Shown piece by piece: positions 18,969 through 31,036 of a stretch of DNA of 37,301 nucleotides (its first letter is position 1; each line of letters starts with the position of its first letter). A program made the translations under genes and the position numbers. This DNA is from a virus, in the IMG/VR virus record IMGVR_UViG_3300049255_000584, positions 1 to 37,301 of that record. One strand, written 5' to 3'. The notes below the pieces were generated by a model. The model did not search any database and was not told the DNA's origin. It was given only the letters and a program-made list of their open reading frames with translations.

Positions 18969-19270
18969 TTGCGGCCCCGCGCCCGCGCTTTTGATATGCG
19001 ATGCTCCGCTTCCTCCACCGCGGCCACGCAGCCTTCGATCTGAAGACTAAGCCGACGATAATTCTCCATTTGCTCTGCGGACATCGTGTCTCCCATGGCT
19101 CGAACGCGGGTTTCTAAGTCCGCGAGGGTCATCCTCAGCATCGGGTTTAGGCAGCCGGCATTCCATCGTGAAACCCGGATTGATATTTTCTGCCGAGCGA
19201 ACTTTGTGAACGCGGGATCCAGCACGTCGCCATCGACGCCAGACTTCGCGGCGTCACCCCTATCGGCCAT
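18965..19270 (-). CDS. Small hypothetical protein, helical C-terminus
   Basis: The protein has 101 residues from the ATG at 19270; the longer frame back to 19456 overlaps another gene and was rejected. The N-terminal half has ALDPAFTKFARQKISIRV-like content and the C-terminal half (MTLADLETRVRAMGDTMSAEQMENYRRL..AVEEAEHRISKARARG) is a strongly charged coiled-coil helix. It lies in a three-gene block inserted between portal and MuF. No family is recognised; a DNA- or head-associated accessory function is a guess. The base composition is lower in GC than the flanking genes. Confidence 0.7.
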   Translation of the reverse strand: MADRGDAAKSGVDGDVLDPAFTKFARQKISIRVSRWNAGCLNPMLRMTLADLETRVRAMGDTMSAEQMENYRRLSLQIEGCVAAVEEAEHRISKARARGRK

Positions 19271-19475
19271 CCGAGCACCCCGGATTTCTGAAGGAGCACC
19301 AAAGCGCTTCGTTGCTGTCATTGCGGAGGCCGCAGAACCGACAAAACTCCGGTGTCTTTGGCGGCACGAATAGGACCGCTGCCTTGCGTGCTGCCGGCCT
19401 CCGTCCCGCCAGCCAAAGCAGGAGAATGATGAAAGCCCCAGGCGCAAGGACCACAATCACTGCCGTCGCTATCAC
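19260..19475 (-). CDS. Small membrane protein with a four-cysteine cluster
   Basis: The protein has 71 residues from a GTG at 19475, forming GTGA with the portal stop. A hydrophobic N-terminal segment (about residues 2-22, IATAVIVVLAPGAFIILLLWL) is a single membrane span. The C-terminal half has C-x-x-C and two further Cys (FCRFC ... WC ... GC), a likely zinc or disulphide site. It follows the portal gene and starts the orphan block before MuF. The combination of membrane span and C4 cluster is unusual for a head-gene region and suggests an accessory host-targeted function. No family is recognised. Confidence 0.72.
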   Translation of the reverse strand: MIATAVIVVLAPGAFIILLLWLAGRRPAARKAAVLFVPPKTPEFCRFCGLRNDSNEALWCSFRNPGCSDGR

Positions 19476-21106
19476 GGCCGCCGCCGCCCGATCTGCGCCA
19501 TCACGCTGGCCTGGCCCACAACCTCGGCCAGCGCCATGCCTTGCGCCATCGCCACGGCGAATTCGTCGCTCTCCAGCTTCAGTCCTTCCAGCCGGCGCCG
19601 CAGGTCCTTCAGGTCCCTGGCGGCCTCCACCTGCGCCCGCACCTGGTCAGTCATGGCGCCCAATCCATTGGCCGCCTGGCGCGCCAGGCGCACCGTCAGG
19701 GCCTCCACAAGCCGGTCTGGGTCATTGCCCGCCGGCGGATCAGGCTCGGCCGTGTGGCGCGCCACCAGCGCGCGCAGCGGGCCGAGCAGGCTGCTCTGCG
19801 GGTCGCTCTCGGAAAGCCCTGGCGAAACCGGCGGCTTCCCACCAGGTGGCACGCCGCCGACCGTCTCATCACCGTCCTCGGGATCGTCCAGATCGAGCTT
19901 ATCCCGCAGCTGCGACGCCTTAACGCGTAGGCCGGTGTCGGCGATCGCCGCGATCACATCCTTGATCGGCGGGCTCTCTTCCTGGCCCACAAGCACGCGC
20001 GGATAGGTCGGCTGCTCGCCGTAGGTGTAGATGATCATCTGCCGCACGATCTGGCGCGTGATCGTCACGCCAAGCAGCCGCGCGTCGAAGCGCTCCACGT
20101 CCTGCTCGGCGCTGCGGTGCTCCTTGCCCACGGCATGGCCGCCCGAAATGGCATCGGTGCCGGCGGTCCCGCCAAGCACCAGCTTGCTCACTGAGCGGTC
20201 CAGCCAGTCTGCCCGCTTTTCGTAGAGCGTGGCGCCGGCCGCGCGATCCGTATCCTTGATGAATTCGATTTCCATCGATTTCGGGATAATGGCGGCGATA
20301 TCACCCGCAATCTGCGAAACGGCCCGCCACAGCGTATTTTTATCGGTCCCGCTCGCCTCGGGTCCGTACCGGCCGACGCGGATTGGCAACCCATAAGCCT
20401 GGATGAAAACCTGCCAGTCACGCGCCGTGAAGGCCGCATACATCCACAGGAACGCCACCATGCGCGTAAGACCGGCGCGCACGATATTGCCCGATTTTGA
20501 CTTGTGCAGGTGCTGCACGAATTTGTTGCCCGGCAGATCGCTGTAGGCGCCGGCATTGCGCAGCCAGATCGTGTTTCCATCGGCCCAGCTCACTTCAAAA
20601 AAGCGCTGCGGCCGGTAGATAAGCTCGATCGGGCGGAAGCGCAGCGGCGTCGTTTCCCAAAGGATTTCCATCACCGAAAAGCCCTTGCCGATCGCGTCTG
20701 TCATGTCGAACAGCGCGTCCTGCAGCACGTCTGTATCGAGCCAATCCTCAACGAGCTTTGCGTCACGCTGCTGCTCTGGGCTGTCGCCGGCGGCCTCCAC
20801 GCGGATCGGCAGTTGGCAGACCTGCCGGCGGCGCTTGGACAGCACGGAGGCGTAATGCGGGTAATTCTCCTCGATCTCTTCCGCCAGCGTGAACCAATCC
20901 ATCGTGTTGCCTTCGTCGGCGGCACGGAGGATTGCGCCCAACCGCTGCGGCGTCATGCCGAAGGCAAGGTGCCCCTGGAATGGCGGCCGAGCCTGCGCAG
21001 CATCCACGTAGGAAACCTGCTTGCGCATGGCGGCAGCCGAGCTCGGCGTATTGAAAACGCCGATCACCCTGTCGCGAAATTTTCCGAAAAGAGTGGGGTC
21101 CGCCAT
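19472..21106 (-). CDS. Portal protein, DUF935 (Mu gp29-like)
   Basis: The protein has 544 residues (Mu gp29 is about 512), starting at the ATG at 21106. It carries the DUF935 hallmarks: GMTPQRLGAILRAADEGNT, EENYPHYASVLSKRRRQVCQLP, the FDMTDAIGKGFSVMEILWE segment, KFVQHLHKSKSGN, LTRMVAFLWMYAAFTARDWQVFIQAYG, and RVGRYGPEASGTDKNTLWRAV. It forms the dodecameric DNA channel at one capsid vertex. A C-terminal acidic/Pro-rich part (ESPPIKDV; PPGGKPPVSPGLSESDP) precedes a helical tail. It follows the inserted glycosyltransferase-like gene rather than TerL directly. Confidence 0.95.
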   Translation of the reverse strand: MADPTLFGKFRDRVIGVFNTPSSAAAMRKQVSYVDAAQARPPFQGHLAFGMTPQRLGAILRAADEGNTMDWFTLAEEIEENYPHYASVLSKRRRQVCQLPIRVEAAGDSPEQQRDAKLVEDWLDTDVLQDALFDMTDAIGKGFSVMEILWETTPLRFRPIELIYRPQRFFEVSWADGNTIWLRNAGAYSDLPGNKFVQHLHKSKSGNIVRAGLTRMVAFLWMYAAFTARDWQVFIQAYGLPIRVGRYGPEASGTDKNTLWRAVSQIAGDIAAIIPKSMEIEFIKDTDRAAGATLYEKRADWLDRSVSKLVLGGTAGTDAISGGHAVGKEHRSAEQDVERFDARLLGVTITRQIVRQMIIYTYGEQPTYPRVLVGQEESPPIKDVIAAIADTGLRVKASQLRDKLDLDDPEDGDETVGGVPPGGKPPVSPGLSESDPQSSLLGPLRALVARHTAEPDPPAGNDPDRLVEALTVRLARQAANGLGAMTDQVRAQVEAARDLKDLRRRLEGLKLESDEFAVAMAQGMALAEVVGQASVMAQIGRRRP

Positions 21107-21124
21107 TTAATCGCGCCTTCAGGT

Positions 21125-22063
21125 TTACAAGCAATTCTCGTCTTCGGCGCGTGAGCGCAGATACAAATCCCACTCGCGCTCGAGCTCGGGCTTATTACCT
21201 GCCCACTCCAGAATGCCCCAGCTATTGCGCTTCAGATCCGTGTCAGGATCAAAGCCGTGGCGCACGAACATATCCCAGCGGGAAAGATAGCCGCGCTTCT
21301 GCTTTTTGCCGTGGAAGCGGTGCTCGATCATGCCCGGCACCGCGGCAAACCGGCCATTCACAAAGCGCCGTGTGCGATCTTGCCAGCGCAGCAGGTGTGC
21401 CTTGTATGATGCGGACGTGCCGCCCGGCCAGCTGCTCTCCACCAGGCCGGCAATCGCCAGTGCCATGTGGTGATCCGCCGAACCCATGCCGCCGAGCTCG
21501 AATAGGCCGCCGACGTAATCCAGGAAGGCGCGCGTGCACCCCCAGGAAAATCCGCTATGCGGGTAATCGTAGGGGCCGCCATCCGCCTTCCAGAAACTTG
21601 GGCCGCCAGGCGCCAATTTGCTGCCGTGCAGGAAACAATCGGCGAAGGAACGGTGCAGGGCGATCAGTTCATCATTCGGCCCCAGGTCCATCGCATTTTC
21701 CCAGGTTTGCAACACCCGGTAGTGCTCCAGATAAGCCGACGTCTCCGACACCCAGTTTGGATTTCGGTGGAAAACGTCGGCGTCTTCCCACACGATTTTC
21801 TGCGCCTGCGGCGTGCGCCGGATCGCCTCCATGATCGCGTTTTCCTTGCTCCACGCCCAGCTATCAGCGCGCAAGCCGATATGCTGCACGTGCGGGATGT
21901 CCGCGCACAGGAAAGGTGCGCCGCCATACTGCACCTCAGCCACCACCACCCGGGCGCCATGGTCGAGCGTTGCCTTTGCCCAATCCTCAAAATGCTTGTG
22001 CGGCGTCTTCCACCGCAGCGGATTGAAGCGAGCCGTGAAAACGTAAACCGGGTCGGCACTCAT
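21125..22063 (-). CDS. Glycosyltransferase-like protein (GT-A fold, galactosyltransferase-like)
   Basis: The protein has 312 residues from the ATG at 22063, overlapping the previous stop (ATGA). It begins YVFTARFNPLRWKTPHKHFEDW and shows a DxD-like motif (WEDADVF, Asp94 and Asp96), a FWKADGGPYDYPHSGFSWGCTRAFLD segment, and GGMGSADHHMALAIAG (about 191-206), comparable to the W-G-x-D/E-D acceptor motif of beta-1,4-galactosyltransferases. It ends in ELEREWDLYLRSRAEDE. It lies between terminase and portal, an unusual place. Possible substrates are virion proteins, modified DNA bases or host envelope glycans; nothing in the sequence decides. The enzyme class is inferred from fold motifs. Confidence 0.78.
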   Translation of the reverse strand: MSADPVYVFTARFNPLRWKTPHKHFEDWAKATLDHGARVVVAEVQYGGAPFLCADIPHVQHIGLRADSWAWSKENAIMEAIRRTPQAQKIVWEDADVFHRNPNWVSETSAYLEHYRVLQTWENAMDLGPNDELIALHRSFADCFLHGSKLAPGGPSFWKADGGPYDYPHSGFSWGCTRAFLDYVGGLFELGGMGSADHHMALAIAGLVESSWPGGTSASYKAHLLRWQDRTRRFVNGRFAAVPGMIEHRFHGKKQKRGYLSRWDMFVRHGFDPDTDLKRNSWGILEWAGNKPELEREWDLYLRSRAEDENCL

Positions 22064-22413
22064 TTCGTCACCTTGGGATAGGGTTTGTCGGGATCAGCCG
22101 CCGGCCGCAGCGCGGCCGGCAGCTGAAAGCGGTAGCGCCAGGCCACGCGCATAACCTGCGCACGCTGGGCATCGGTCATTGCGGCCACGCGTTTGCCGCG
22201 CATGTCCCGCAGGAATTGGCGGTCGCCGGGGAAATCGGTCACCACGCGCTGCAGCCGTGCCAGCAGGTTGCTCAGCAGCAGCTCGGTCGCCAGATCCACG
22301 GTCGAGCAATCCGGCGCCGCCAGGCCCGGCATCAGGCTGCGCTCCGCCGCATCCACCGCCACGGGCTCCGCCCCTGGATCGATGCGCTCGAAGGGCTCGG
22401 CCACGGTCGGCAT
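22060..22413 (-). CDS. Small hypothetical protein after TerL
   Basis: The protein has 117 residues from the ATG at 22413, within TGATG at the terminase stop (a GTG one codon upstream is possible). The central part (about residues 40-95) is helical: TVDLATELLLSNLLARLQRVVTDF, RQFLRDMRGKRVAAM, QRAQVMRVAWRYRFQLP, with Arg-rich faces. It is coupled to the following glycosyltransferase-like gene by ATGA. It does not look like a terminase small subunit. No family is recognised. Confidence 0.72.
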   Translation of the reverse strand: MPTVAEPFERIDPGAEPVAVDAAERSLMPGLAAPDCSTVDLATELLLSNLLARLQRVVTDFPGDRQFLRDMRGKRVAAMTDAQRAQVMRVAWRYRFQLPAALRPAADPDKPYPKVTK

Positions 22414-23984
22414 CACAGAGACCGTCCGGAAAGATTGAAGGCGCTGCCGCGCAGCCCGCCGAAGAGGCTGCTGTGCTCACCGCGCCGATCGTCGTCATCC
22501 TCGCCGTCCCACTCCCGTTGCGCTTTCGTCTTCTGCGCAACCGGGCCCTGGTATTCGTAGAATTCGACGTCGGCGTGGCTGGCGGCGATCATCATGGCGG
22601 CGGCGATCGCGGCGTCGCCATGGCGGCCGTCGCCCTCGGAATTGAACGTGCGCTCCGGCACCCGCACCACGCCGCGCACCAACGCCAGGTGCGCGAAATC
22701 CTCCAACACCTCGGCGTCGATCGGCAGCTCGATCGTGCCGTCCGTGAACGCCGCCACCAGCTTCGGCATGTTCTCGCGGTACCAAGGGTCGCTCAGCATT
22801 ACGCATTCGATGCGCGTCTCGCCGTACCGCTCGAGCGCCTTTTCGGCCAAATAACTGCCATTGCCGCCGGCATCGAGCTTGCCCGCCCGGAAGCGCGGCA
22901 GCCGGTCCACCATGTAGAACAGGATTTCTCGCTGTTGATCGAAGGGCACGTTGCGCAGCTCGACGATGAAGGGCACGCGGCGCACCAGGTTGCGCTGGAT
23001 TTGCGCCGGCACGAAGACCGTCAAATCCTTTTTCCGCCCGAAATCCTCGCCGAAAACGGAAGCCAATTCGGGATCGAGCTTCAGCAGCTCCGGCAGCAAA
23101 TTCTTCTCGCACCAGGCCAACGCCTCGGCAGTCTTGATATGCGGCGGATAGATCAGGAATTCCGCGCTGCATTTCCAGCGCAGCACCGGCGCCTTCACCA
23201 CCATGCGCTTTTCGATCAGCACGCGCGGCAGGGCAGCACCGCCGCCTTCGGATGGGATGCAGAACAGCTCCTCGTCCGCCTTGTCGCCGTATTGTGCGAT
23301 CAGCTTAGCCCGCCATGCCGCTTGCGCCGCCGGCGACGGGTCAAGCCCTAGCTTCGCTGCAATGCGCTGATAAAGCCCTTGTTCCAGCGCGTCGTCGAGC
23401 GTGCAGCGCAGCAGATGGTAGGGTTTTTTGCCGGCGCGAATTTCGTGAATGATTTTGTTAAAATAGTTTTCTTCGCCGTTATGCGTGCTGATGACCAGTA
23501 TTCGGCCGCCCCACATCAGTAGTGCGATCGCCGCCTTCAGCACCCCTTCCAGGTCATCAATGAAGGCGGCCTCATCAATGATAACCAGGCCCTGCTTGCC
23601 GCGCAGTGCCCGCGCCACCGATGGCAGCGCCACAATTTCAAAGCCGCTATCCAGCTCGCATCGGAAAGCCATAAGCTGCTTTTCCGGGTGATCCGGGTCA
23701 CTGAAAAACTGTTCCTGGAAGGCCGAGGCCGCCACTTGCAGGGTGCCCGCCCATTCACCGCAATAGTTGATGAACTCGCGTGTCATCTCCTTTTCGTAGC
23801 CCATGTAGTAAACATTCATGCCGCCAGCCGCGCGGCTGGCCGCGGCCGTCATCACGGCAATAGCCCCGGCGCCCCACGAATAGCCGGTGCGCCGGCTCTT
23901 CTCGACGAAGGTGATCGGGTAGTGCGCCGCACTCGACATCAGCTCTTGCTGATACGTGCAGAAAACAGCCGGCAGCGCGCTCAT
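22413..23984 (-). CDS. Terminase large subunit (Mu gp28-like)
   Basis: The protein has 523 residues from the ATG at 23984, which overlaps the stop of a 37-codon gene (ATGA); a longer frame back to 24047 was rejected. It has a deviant Walker A (FVEKSRRTGYSW, about residues 26-37) and a clear Walker B (QGLVIIDEAAF, with Asp137-Glu138), then RILVISTHNGEENYF as a coupling motif. The C-terminal RNase-H-like nuclease part contains GEDFGRKKDLTVFVPAQ and a DGRHGDAAIAAAMM segment that probably supplies a late acidic residue. It cuts and packages DNA by a headful mechanism, starting in the phage's left end in Mu. Confidence 0.95.
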   Translation of the reverse strand: MSALPAVFCTYQQELMSSAAHYPITFVEKSRRTGYSWGAGAIAVMTAAASRAAGGMNVYYMGYEKEMTREFINYCGEWAGTLQVAASAFQEQFFSDPDHPEKQLMAFRCELDSGFEIVALPSVARALRGKQGLVIIDEAAFIDDLEGVLKAAIALLMWGGRILVISTHNGEENYFNKIIHEIRAGKKPYHLLRCTLDDALEQGLYQRIAAKLGLDPSPAAQAAWRAKLIAQYGDKADEELFCIPSEGGGAALPRVLIEKRMVVKAPVLRWKCSAEFLIYPPHIKTAEALAWCEKNLLPELLKLDPELASVFGEDFGRKKDLTVFVPAQIQRNLVRRVPFIVELRNVPFDQQREILFYMVDRLPRFRAGKLDAGGNGSYLAEKALERYGETRIECVMLSDPWYRENMPKLVAAFTDGTIELPIDAEVLEDFAHLALVRGVVRVPERTFNSEGDGRHGDAAIAAAMMIAASHADVEFYEYQGPVAQKTKAQREWDGEDDDDRRGEHSSLFGGLRGSAFNLSGRSL

Positions 23985-24094
23985 GGCTTGGGCAGTCCTG
24001 GCAGACTGGCGGCCAGCAGCAGTTGCGCCGCAATGAACGCGCCGCACAGCCAGGCTGCCGCGCGCGTGGTGATCAGGGGGCGCCGCTCACGCAT
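23981..24094 (-). CDS. 37-residue membrane peptide coupled to terminase
   Basis: This short ORF runs from an ATG at 24094 (overlapping the preceding gene's TGA) to a TGA whose overlap with the terminase ATG is ATGA. The peptide has a basic N-terminus (MRERRPLITTR) and a hydrophobic stretch (about residues 12-30, AAAWLCGAFIAAQLLLAAS), a single membrane span. It fills the gap exactly and is coupled at both ends, which favours real expression. No family is recognised; it may be a small accessory protein, or mainly a translation-coupling leader for terL. Confidence 0.6.
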   Translation of the reverse strand: MRERRPLITTRAAAWLCGAFIAAQLLLAASLPGLPKP

Positions 24095-29997: not shown

Positions 29998-30101
29998 AGC
30001 GGGTCGCATCCGATTTGCATCGCGAGATCTATCCAGTCCTCGATTGGGGATTTATATACTTGACTCCCTTTAAGCCAATCATGGCCGAAAAGTCGCGGCA
30101 A
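29994..30101 (-). CDS. Candidate 35-residue ORF or gene remnant overlapping the methyltransferase end
   Basis: In the +1 frame across the methyltransferase stop, a frame continues to a TGA at 29996-29994, where it overlaps the GemA-like ATG as ATGA, as at most junctions here. A TTG at 30101 is the only start. The residues look coding: PRLFGHDWLKGSQVY, then SPIEDWIDLAMQIGCDPL. No ribosome-binding site is visible for the TTG. Either it is a real short gene, or the 3' remnant of a longer gene whose 5' part was replaced when the methyltransferase entered. Low confidence as a separate product. Confidence 0.4.
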   Translation of the reverse strand: MPRLFGHDWLKGSQVYKSPIEDWIDLAMQIGCDPL

Positions 30102-30798
30102 TATGCCGGCTAAGCGGAAGCGGAATCTTGGCGATCAGGGCACTTGCCTCCTTGCGTCGCAGCGACGCCGAAGGCAATTGGCAAAGATTGCGGTCGAACC
30201 ATTCCGCGCCTGCGCCTGCGCCCTTGCGTCCTTCGGCTGGGTTCGCCCGCTTGATTTCATTCAACGCCTGCTTGCCAGCCACACGAGTGAAATCCTGCCC
30301 CTTCTTGGTTCGGTCACTCCAATTCATACCGGATGACTTGAACCCATTGGACGTGATTGGCATGAGCGCCGGCACGTCGCCCCAAAGATAGAACGAACCA
30401 AAATTCCAGCGGGCACGTCCCACCCAAGGTTGCGCGCCACGCACATTCTCAACAATCAGCGGGATGTGGCGACCGGCTGCCTCGCAAGCCTCCCGTTGAA
30501 TACGGAAGCACGCCTCAAAAAGCGCATTGTCTGGTGGGCCGAGCGCCTTTGCCTTCTTCCAAGGCATTGCTCTGTAACTGTAGGCTTGGCATGGTGGCGA
30601 CGCGACGATCAGGGCTGCATTCTGGAACTGCGAGCCGTGCAGCGTTCGCACGTCCTGAATAGCCAAGAGGCCGGGATAGCGACTTTTACCGTATTCGTGC
30701 CGTTCGATATCGAAGCCGATCACGTCGAAACCTTCGGCGATCAAGCCGTCAGTCCAGCCGCCCGAGCCGCAGAACAGATCAATTGCCAGAGGTCGCAT
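30079..30798 (-). CDS. C5-cytosine DNA methyltransferase
   Basis: The protein has 239 residues from the ATG at 30798, near the start of motif I; a start at 30813 is possible. Motifs in order: DLFCGSGGWTDGL (residues 7-19, S-adenosylmethionine binding), ASPPCQAYS (66-74, catalytic Cys70), and IVENVRG (115-121, the ENV motif). Target recognition and late motifs are short; the protein is smaller than host or restriction-linked enzymes (usually 300-400), and no restriction gene is near. Phage methyltransferases of this type protect DNA from host restriction. By eye its GC is about 50-55%, well below neighbouring genes (60-70%), suggesting recent acquisition. Confidence 0.9.
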   Translation of the reverse strand: MRPLAIDLFCGSGGWTDGLIAEGFDVIGFDIERHEYGKSRYPGLLAIQDVRTLHGSQFQNAALIVASPPCQAYSYRAMPWKKAKALGPPDNALFEACFRIQREACEAAGRHIPLIVENVRGAQPWVGRARWNFGSFYLWGDVPALMPITSNGFKSSGMNWSDRTKKGQDFTRVAGKQALNEIKRANPAEGRKGAGAGAEWFDRNLCQLPSASLRRKEASALIAKIPLPLSRHIAATFRP

Positions 30799-31036
30799 TG
30801 CGCACCTTCGCAACCTTCGCCGCCAGCCGTTTCCGCTTCTTCGCGGGCTTGCTTTTGGGCTTGGGTGCCAGCACCAGATCGGCGACGGCGTCGAGCGCCT
30901 TGGGCGGCTGGGGCGCTTTCACTGCACCAGCGCCTTGTAAGGCAGCCGGTTGCCAGCAGCCCCAAGGAATTCCGCGAGCCTCACCCAGCAGACAAGCGGC
31001 AAGGCTCTCGACCGCACTTTTCGCTGTTATGCTCAT
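30779..31036 (-). CDS. Small basic hypothetical protein before methyltransferase
   Basis: The protein has 85 residues from the ATG at 31036, forming ATGA with the preceding stop; the frame back to 31069 is not needed. Its N-terminal half has AVESLAACLLGEARGIPWGCWQPAAL and its C-terminus is Lys/Arg/Ala-rich (KPKSKPAKKRKRLAAKVAKV), suggesting nucleic acid binding. Its end overlaps the methyltransferase start by about 20 bases. No family is recognised. Confidence 0.68.
   Translation of the reverse strand: MSITAKSAVESLAACLLGEARGIPWGCWQPAALQGAGAVKAPQPPKALDAVADLVLAPKPKSKPAKKRKRLAAKVAKVRNATSGN

Follow-up and report, generated by a model that had tools for sequence, protein, structure and literature searches.

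A glycosyltransferase (GT) gene from a widespread family without a database name lies between the packaging genes and the portal gene of a Mu-like phage. It is an accessory gene there: a near-identical phage carries a divergent allele in its place, and the same interval in another relative holds what appears to be an unrelated glycosyltransferase. We consider there to be about an even chance that the product is a metal-dependent, exchangeable GT that is made with the late proteins, takes a nucleotide-sugar from the host, and modifies most likely a virion protein.

The window, by which we mean the whole stretch of DNA analyzed, is a viral contig 37,301 bases long. The phage is Mu-like by its MuA (PF02914, PF09039), MuB, F protein, Mu portal, Phage_tail_S-type morphogenesis protein, and GemA. 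The GT is encoded at 22063-21125 on the minus strand by a real ORF of 312 aa with an ATG start, placed, as the initial annotation had it, between the genes for the terminase large subunit (22413-24047, minus strand; phrog_2, E = 2.7e-29) and a Mu-type portal protein (19472-21106, minus strand; Portal_Mu PF06074, E = 1.3e-74). The coupling to packaging genes claimed in the same annotation was also seen: the ATG of the GT gene overlaps the TGA of a small gene, orf118 (22060-22416, minus strand, 118 aa), as ATGA, and orf118 in turn begins within the last bases of the terminase ORF (24047-22413). The small gene had been taken for an orphan; it is a conserved gene, with homologues in the same place in L102, L041, L056, L100, and L103 and in the Acetobacteraceae stretches L241, L244, and L245. 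We refer to the interval bordered by orf118 on the left and the portal gene on the right as the slot. Between positions 19000 and 25000 we found one promoter-like site (1.2 expected), and none immediately 5' of the GT gene. Elsewhere, the window carries a C5-cytosine DNA methylase-like ORF of 244 aa (30079-30813, minus strand), whose Pfam match spans residues 11-110 and model positions 4-102 of 324, so that the ORF may be partial or fused.

Relatives of the GT are encoded at 49 loci in IMG/VR (protein scan; up to 71% identity over the full length) and at 44 loci in genome assemblies (profile scan), which shows that the ORF is not a chance reading frame. The phage collection contributed one record, Xanthomonas phage XaC1 (28% identity), and the plasmid collection four (Cupriavidus and Burkholderia, 31-33% identity). 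The window protein matched no Pfam or PADLOC model and, by phmmer, no PDB sequence; its best PHROGs hit reached only E = 0.18 and named no family, and an NCBIfam scan of eight family members returned nothing. When 29 aligned members were scanned against Pfam at E ≤ 0.5, seven families were matched in all; 18 members touched GT2 (PF00535, best E = 3.6e-4) and two touched GT21. A profile of the 29 members gave a similarly weak link to ceramide glucosyltransferase (E = 3.7e-4), in which ED-YFMA of that enzyme aligns with GS-D-hhMA of the family. A literature search on the gene arrangement, which covered titles and the beginnings of abstracts, yielded no description of the family. The family is widespread and without a database name, and it is found beside virion genes in two or more unrelated lineages of phage.

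The AlphaFold2 model of the window protein (33 sequences; pLDDT 89.8, pTM 0.90) matched 253 PDB chains in Foldseek at E ≤ 0.001, with E down to 9.7e-8. Among the 50 matches displayed, most were glycosyl- and nucleotidyl-transferases, including the WrtF fucosyltransferase, chondroitin polymerase, and GalNAc-T2. VIA-align placed glycosyltransferase 6p61 first (Z 15.2, rmsd 2.9, 179 residues), followed by TarP and WrtF (both 14.2), GalNAc-T2 of GT27 (13.7), and beta4GalT7 of GT7 (13.0). In the predicted structure, the protein is a clear GT-A glycosyltransferase by fold, and the structural ranking picks no family. The initial description as galactosyltransferase-like therefore holds for the glycosyltransferase fold and the DxD motif; nothing singles out galactose. 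A special tie to GT7 or GT27, the families named for its check, gained no support from the structure search, in which beta4GalT7 and GalNAc-T2 scored level with many other GT-A enzymes. Moreover, no GT7 model was among the seven Pfam families matched by the 29 members, and all 75 homologues compared carry DxD, whereas GT27 is marked by DxH in its stead (PMC7185993). Two viral proteins without a named function matched the model over its whole length, A0A6G6XPM6 in BFVD (398 aa, TM 0.89, 29% identity) and A0A5K0U7Q5 of Yasminevirus (530 aa, TM 0.86, 27% identity); judging by the modeled structures, both probably belong to the same family. Yasminevirus is a giant virus.

The window protein has all the GT-A core motifs defined by Taujale et al. 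(PMC7185993). We compared 75 full-length homologues, leaving out the broken L039 copy, truncated and intein-bearing copies, and some near-duplicate loci; identity to the window protein went down to about 28%. D94, D96, G186, G194, D197, H248, and H251 were invariant in 75 of 75, as were R257, Y259, R262, Y301, R305, E307, and D308 in a family-specific C-terminal region. The motifs WEDADVF (residues 92-98) and GGMGSADHH (residues 191-199), noticed earlier, are indeed there. The former contains the DxD motif D94-A95-D96 (21776-21784, minus strand), which directly follows modeled strand 89-93 and would bind nucleotide-sugar and metal. The nucleotide-sugar type of fold and the DxD motif bear out this part of the initial proposal. 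The latter motif lies across a glycine-rich loop with an xED-like motif (residues 185-197; 21473-21511, minus strand). D197 stands at the start of modeled helix 196-204, aligns with the ED of ceramide glucosyltransferase, and is likely the catalytic base; the residue before it is Ala or Gly rather than Glu or another acidic residue. Modeled strand 245-248 ends at H248, and one of H248 and H251 (21311-21322, minus strand) is probably a metal ligand. From these motifs, the enzyme is probably metal dependent and inverting. It shares with GT2/GT21-type enzymes (PF00535; ceramide glucosyltransferase) the GT-A fold, the DxD motif, the Asp that opens the xED helix, and the weak profile links; unlike them, it lacks a Pfam match, has Ala or Gly before D197, and possesses its own C-terminal region.

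We then compared the window with the near-identical phage L039, in which a stretch corresponding to positions 21068-22080 (approximate borders) is replaced. Identity drops from 97-99% to ∼61% there and recovers shortly after the portal gene begins. The two phages are 99.87% identical over the 6.0 kb upstream of the terminase gene, 95.2% in the terminase gene, 99.4% in orf118 (22090-22412), and 96.5% in the portal gene past its first codons, as opposed to 61.2% DNA identity in the GT gene. The borders are sharp: one falls in the final codons of orf118, the other among roughly the first twelve codons of the portal gene. Over 234 residues, the allele of L039 shares 79% identity with that of L041; with the window allele it shares 53%. 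The GT tree pairs L039 and L041 (100/99) and places the window elsewhere. A deletion and a change of frame disrupt the copy in L039, whereas the window copy is intact. Recombination that exchanged only the GT gene is the simplest account. A chimeric assembly of L039 is conceivable, although the 79%-identical allele in L041 speaks for recombination, as do further dips in identity to 85-97% in parts of the terminase and portal genes (window 22547-24046 and 20147-20446). These dips, which flank the swapped gene, suggest that exchange in this region happened more than once.

Next, we followed the slot through other Mu-like phages. Contigs were collected by a portal scan (3 loci), a terminase scan (20 loci), and tblastn of window genes, and the count covers 19 distinct viral contigs that show both terminase and portal (L103, L104, and L116 stop short of the portal). 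The slot held a member of the GT family in two contigs (L039 and L041), a different enzyme in one (L102), and neither in 16, where an empty slot means one without a homologue of the window GT. In genomes from the family of Acetobacter musti, a related portal was found in 16 of 299, at 19 places. Eighteen Acetobacteraceae prophage stretches, in which homologues of the L102 enzyme were also sought, had the GT in the slot once (L257, the same place as L056) and lacked it 17 times. The GT gene is therefore, as initially described, inserted between terminase/orf118 and portal, and it is accessory in Mu-like phages. Random variation of its position among relatives, which would have refuted the initial proposal, is on the whole not what we saw: four Mu-like phages (the window, L039, L041, and L056) have it in this slot, and a second lineage, described below, has one fixed slot of its own, but in the Mu-like L106 and L077 it lies upstream of the terminase gene (its end ∼3.5 kb away in L106, ∼2.5 kb in L077), immediately after a small ORF judged by eye to be of the lysis type.

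The different enzyme in L102 (L102:6925-8349) is 474 aa long, and here too the ATG overlaps the 3' end of the orf118 homologue. It matched Pfam Glyco_trans_1_4 weakly (E = 0.0016, under the curated cut-off) and the predicted glycosyltransferases 3c48/3c4q, presumably MshA, at E of about 9e-5. Folded alone it reached a pLDDT of 35.8, so its putative GT4-like, GT-B type is read from sequence. Two genome relatives (L259 and L260) are 42% identical to it, one of them encoded ∼750 bases upstream of what by eye is a P27-type small terminase subunit-like protein. The L102 enzyme also has a Y/G/P-rich tract of YGPD/AYGPES-type repeats near its N terminus, absent from both relatives. That the slot is empty, or filled by a divergent version or an unrelated enzyme, among relatives suggests that the phage can swap a late sugar mark. 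A bolder reading, which we regard as doubtful, is that phages of this kind reserve the orf118-portal interval for glycosylation genes. Structurally unrelated GTs (the GT-A family described here, its divergent alleles, and a GT4-like enzyme) would be exchanged there by recombination, giving virions different sugar coats; if so, near-identical Mu-like phages would switch coats through gene replacement.

Most IMG/VR relatives of the GT belong to an unrelated myophage lineage with a phrog_38 terminase, a phrog_145 portal, a phrog_1357 major head protein, and a phrog_23 sheath. Terminase, portal, and major head protein genes lie upstream of the GT gene and the sheath gene downstream. Using the best 80 of 498 stretches matched by the major head protein of this lineage, we found 61 loci with both flanking genes (c5 and c2). 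The GT lies between them in 22 (gap of 967-1151 bases), and the remaining 39 show a clean absence, with no GT-family gene in a gap of 8-316 bases. A tree of head proteins from 66 loci (27 with GT, including five scored by the left flank only, and 39 without) requires seven changes in GT presence, at least four of which are forced by well-supported branches; the GT was thus gained or lost repeatedly. Its place was the same throughout, the exception being L175, where a short GT piece (L175:135-260) lies ∼0.9 kb upstream of the portal gene and no terminase was found. To look for a substrate, we compared nine structural proteins column by column between GT-bearing and GT-lacking loci (27 and 20 of 47 loci, fewer where a gene was cut). 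No clear difference emerged, which counts against a virion protein; one column in one protein (c2) reached p < 1e-5, uncorrected for kinship. Other phage loci also have the GT near virion genes: in L037 it comes after genes for the head scaffold and the major head protein, a terminase gene follows it in L008, and a head-closure gene lies nearby on the opposite strand in L046. In the jumbo phage XaC1, the GT lies amid hypothetical genes, and the nearest annotated structural gene in the 21-kb stretch viewed is ∼9.4 kb away.

Taken with the coupling, the position of the gene points to late expression. We reasoned that a soluble, metal-dependent, probably inverting GT-A enzyme, carried in the late (head) operon as an accessory gene open to exchange, would be co-translated with the terminase, orf118, and the portal protein through overlapping or abutting frames and hence be active while virions are made. 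It would draw sugar from the host nucleotide-sugar pool and transfer it most likely onto a virion protein, so that the surface of the particle is altered; replacement of the gene by a divergent allele or an unrelated glycosyltransferase through recombination would then change or remove the sugar mark. We give a virion protein the larger share because the GT accompanies virion genes in otherwise differing lineages.

The main competitor, to which we assign about one chance in three, is that the GT alters the host cell surface (LPS, capsule, or another glycan), late or in the lysogen, and so keeps phages from re-adsorbing or superinfecting, much as with serotype-converting phages or the TarP of prophages. 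In its favor, the closest structural matches include cell-surface-glycan enzymes, namely WrtF, whose PDB titles name a fucosyltransferase with oligosaccharide acceptors, and TarP. These matches count against a virion protein, as do the GT of L106 and L077, which stands beside a lysis-type gene instead of head genes, the bacterial homologues that lie outside phage regions, and the XaC1 gene, which lies far from annotated structural genes. Allele swapping and replacement by an unrelated GT would also be compatible with competition over surface glycans. However, the GT accompanies virion genes in several lineages, and through its coupling to head genes it is probably silent in the lysogen. Late genes are normally silent in a lysogen, which makes lysogenic conversion less likely than modification of a virion protein or of the dying host's surface. 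Nor was there a sign of a gtr serotype-conversion cluster: no GtrA-type flippase (PF04138) was matched in the record at E ≤ 1, while the same model was found in 13 of 14 control genomes.

That the gene is a selfish or decaying passenger without present function, its presence and absence reflecting random gain and loss, seems improbable. The GT family is missing from the slot in 16 of the 19 Mu-like viral contigs, one more holding the other enzyme, and in 17 of the 18 Acetobacteraceae stretches, and the L039 copy is frameshifted; yet the catalytic residues are invariant in all 75 homologues, the window copy is intact, and in five contigs an intein sits exactly at the conserved H169-S170. Inteins favor conserved sites of functional proteins. 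The intein, in L045, L046, L047, L048, and L049 (e.g., L046:6369-8438), begins with CLPGDSLV and ends with THN followed by Ser (Pfam Intein_splicing, E = 2e-6), and these contigs are 99.9-100% identical there; the matching, intein-free site in the window is 21556-21557 (minus strand). Slightly less probable still is glycosylation of phage DNA bases against restriction. In its favor, DNA-hypermodifying phage glycosyltransferases exist (Pyle 2024, as cited in PMC12619734) and the window has the methylase-like ORF. However, the search gave no sign of a hydroxylated base that could carry a sugar: neither PF00303 (thymidylate-synthase/hydroxymethylase-type) nor PF12851 (TET/JBP; a weak test, found in only 2 of 14 controls and never over the cut-off) was matched at E ≤ 1 in a record that may be incomplete. 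The lack of matches to GtrA and to base-hydroxylating enzymes makes both serotype conversion and DNA modification less likely.

To our knowledge, phage virion glycosylation is known from few cases, mainly mycobacteriophages, and phage GTs that are accessory or that modify virions have been described before. Within the searches made, the new elements are the unnamed GT-A family, which was repeatedly gained and lost at fixed places among late genes, the precise allele replacement, and the unrelated glycosyltransferase in the same slot. The natural near-isogenic pairs (the window and L039; second-lineage phages with and without the GT) would allow a direct test of the role of a late GT, and the invariant motifs supply a sequence signature for naming the family. 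TarP, a wall teichoic acid GlcNAc transferase carried by prophages (PMC9837562), likewise has the GT-A fold and aligns with the window protein at Z 14.2 (189 residues); it differs in having 7% identity to the window protein and in acting on a Gram-positive polymer. A precedent for virion glycosylation comes from mycobacteriophages Che8 (gp110), Corndog (gp38), and Myrna, whose phage-encoded GTs are reported to glycosylate virion proteins (PMC12363180, PMC11256854). In the related Maravista, the GT genes lie near the 3' end of the genome, whereas the window gene lies between terminase and portal.

Bacterial and plasmid homologues (Burkholderiales, Pseudomonas, and plasmids) form a separate clade at about 30% identity, and some lie outside phage regions, e.g., in L062, where the next gene after the GT encodes a periplasmic (transporter) binding protein. 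In L059, a MAG contig from Proteobacteria (L059:1447-4551), a lysis-type ORF and the GT are directly upstream of a flagellin gene (Flagellin_N, E = 5e-16), with a TPR-methyltransferase gene further past it. We did not take the flagellin as more than a single lead to protein glycosylation: tblastn with it against the other GT loci searched found none, and the o164-GT pair of L059 resembles that of phage L106, where the first gene is of the lysis type (phmmer E = 1.3e-26). Among the beta/gammaproteobacterial and plasmid homologues (L053:11986-13838 and L080-L097), the GT is followed by a second gene, coiled-coil-like by eye and without a Pfam match in L053, whose cluster was present in 12 of 20 loci; together the two look like a mobile two-gene cassette.
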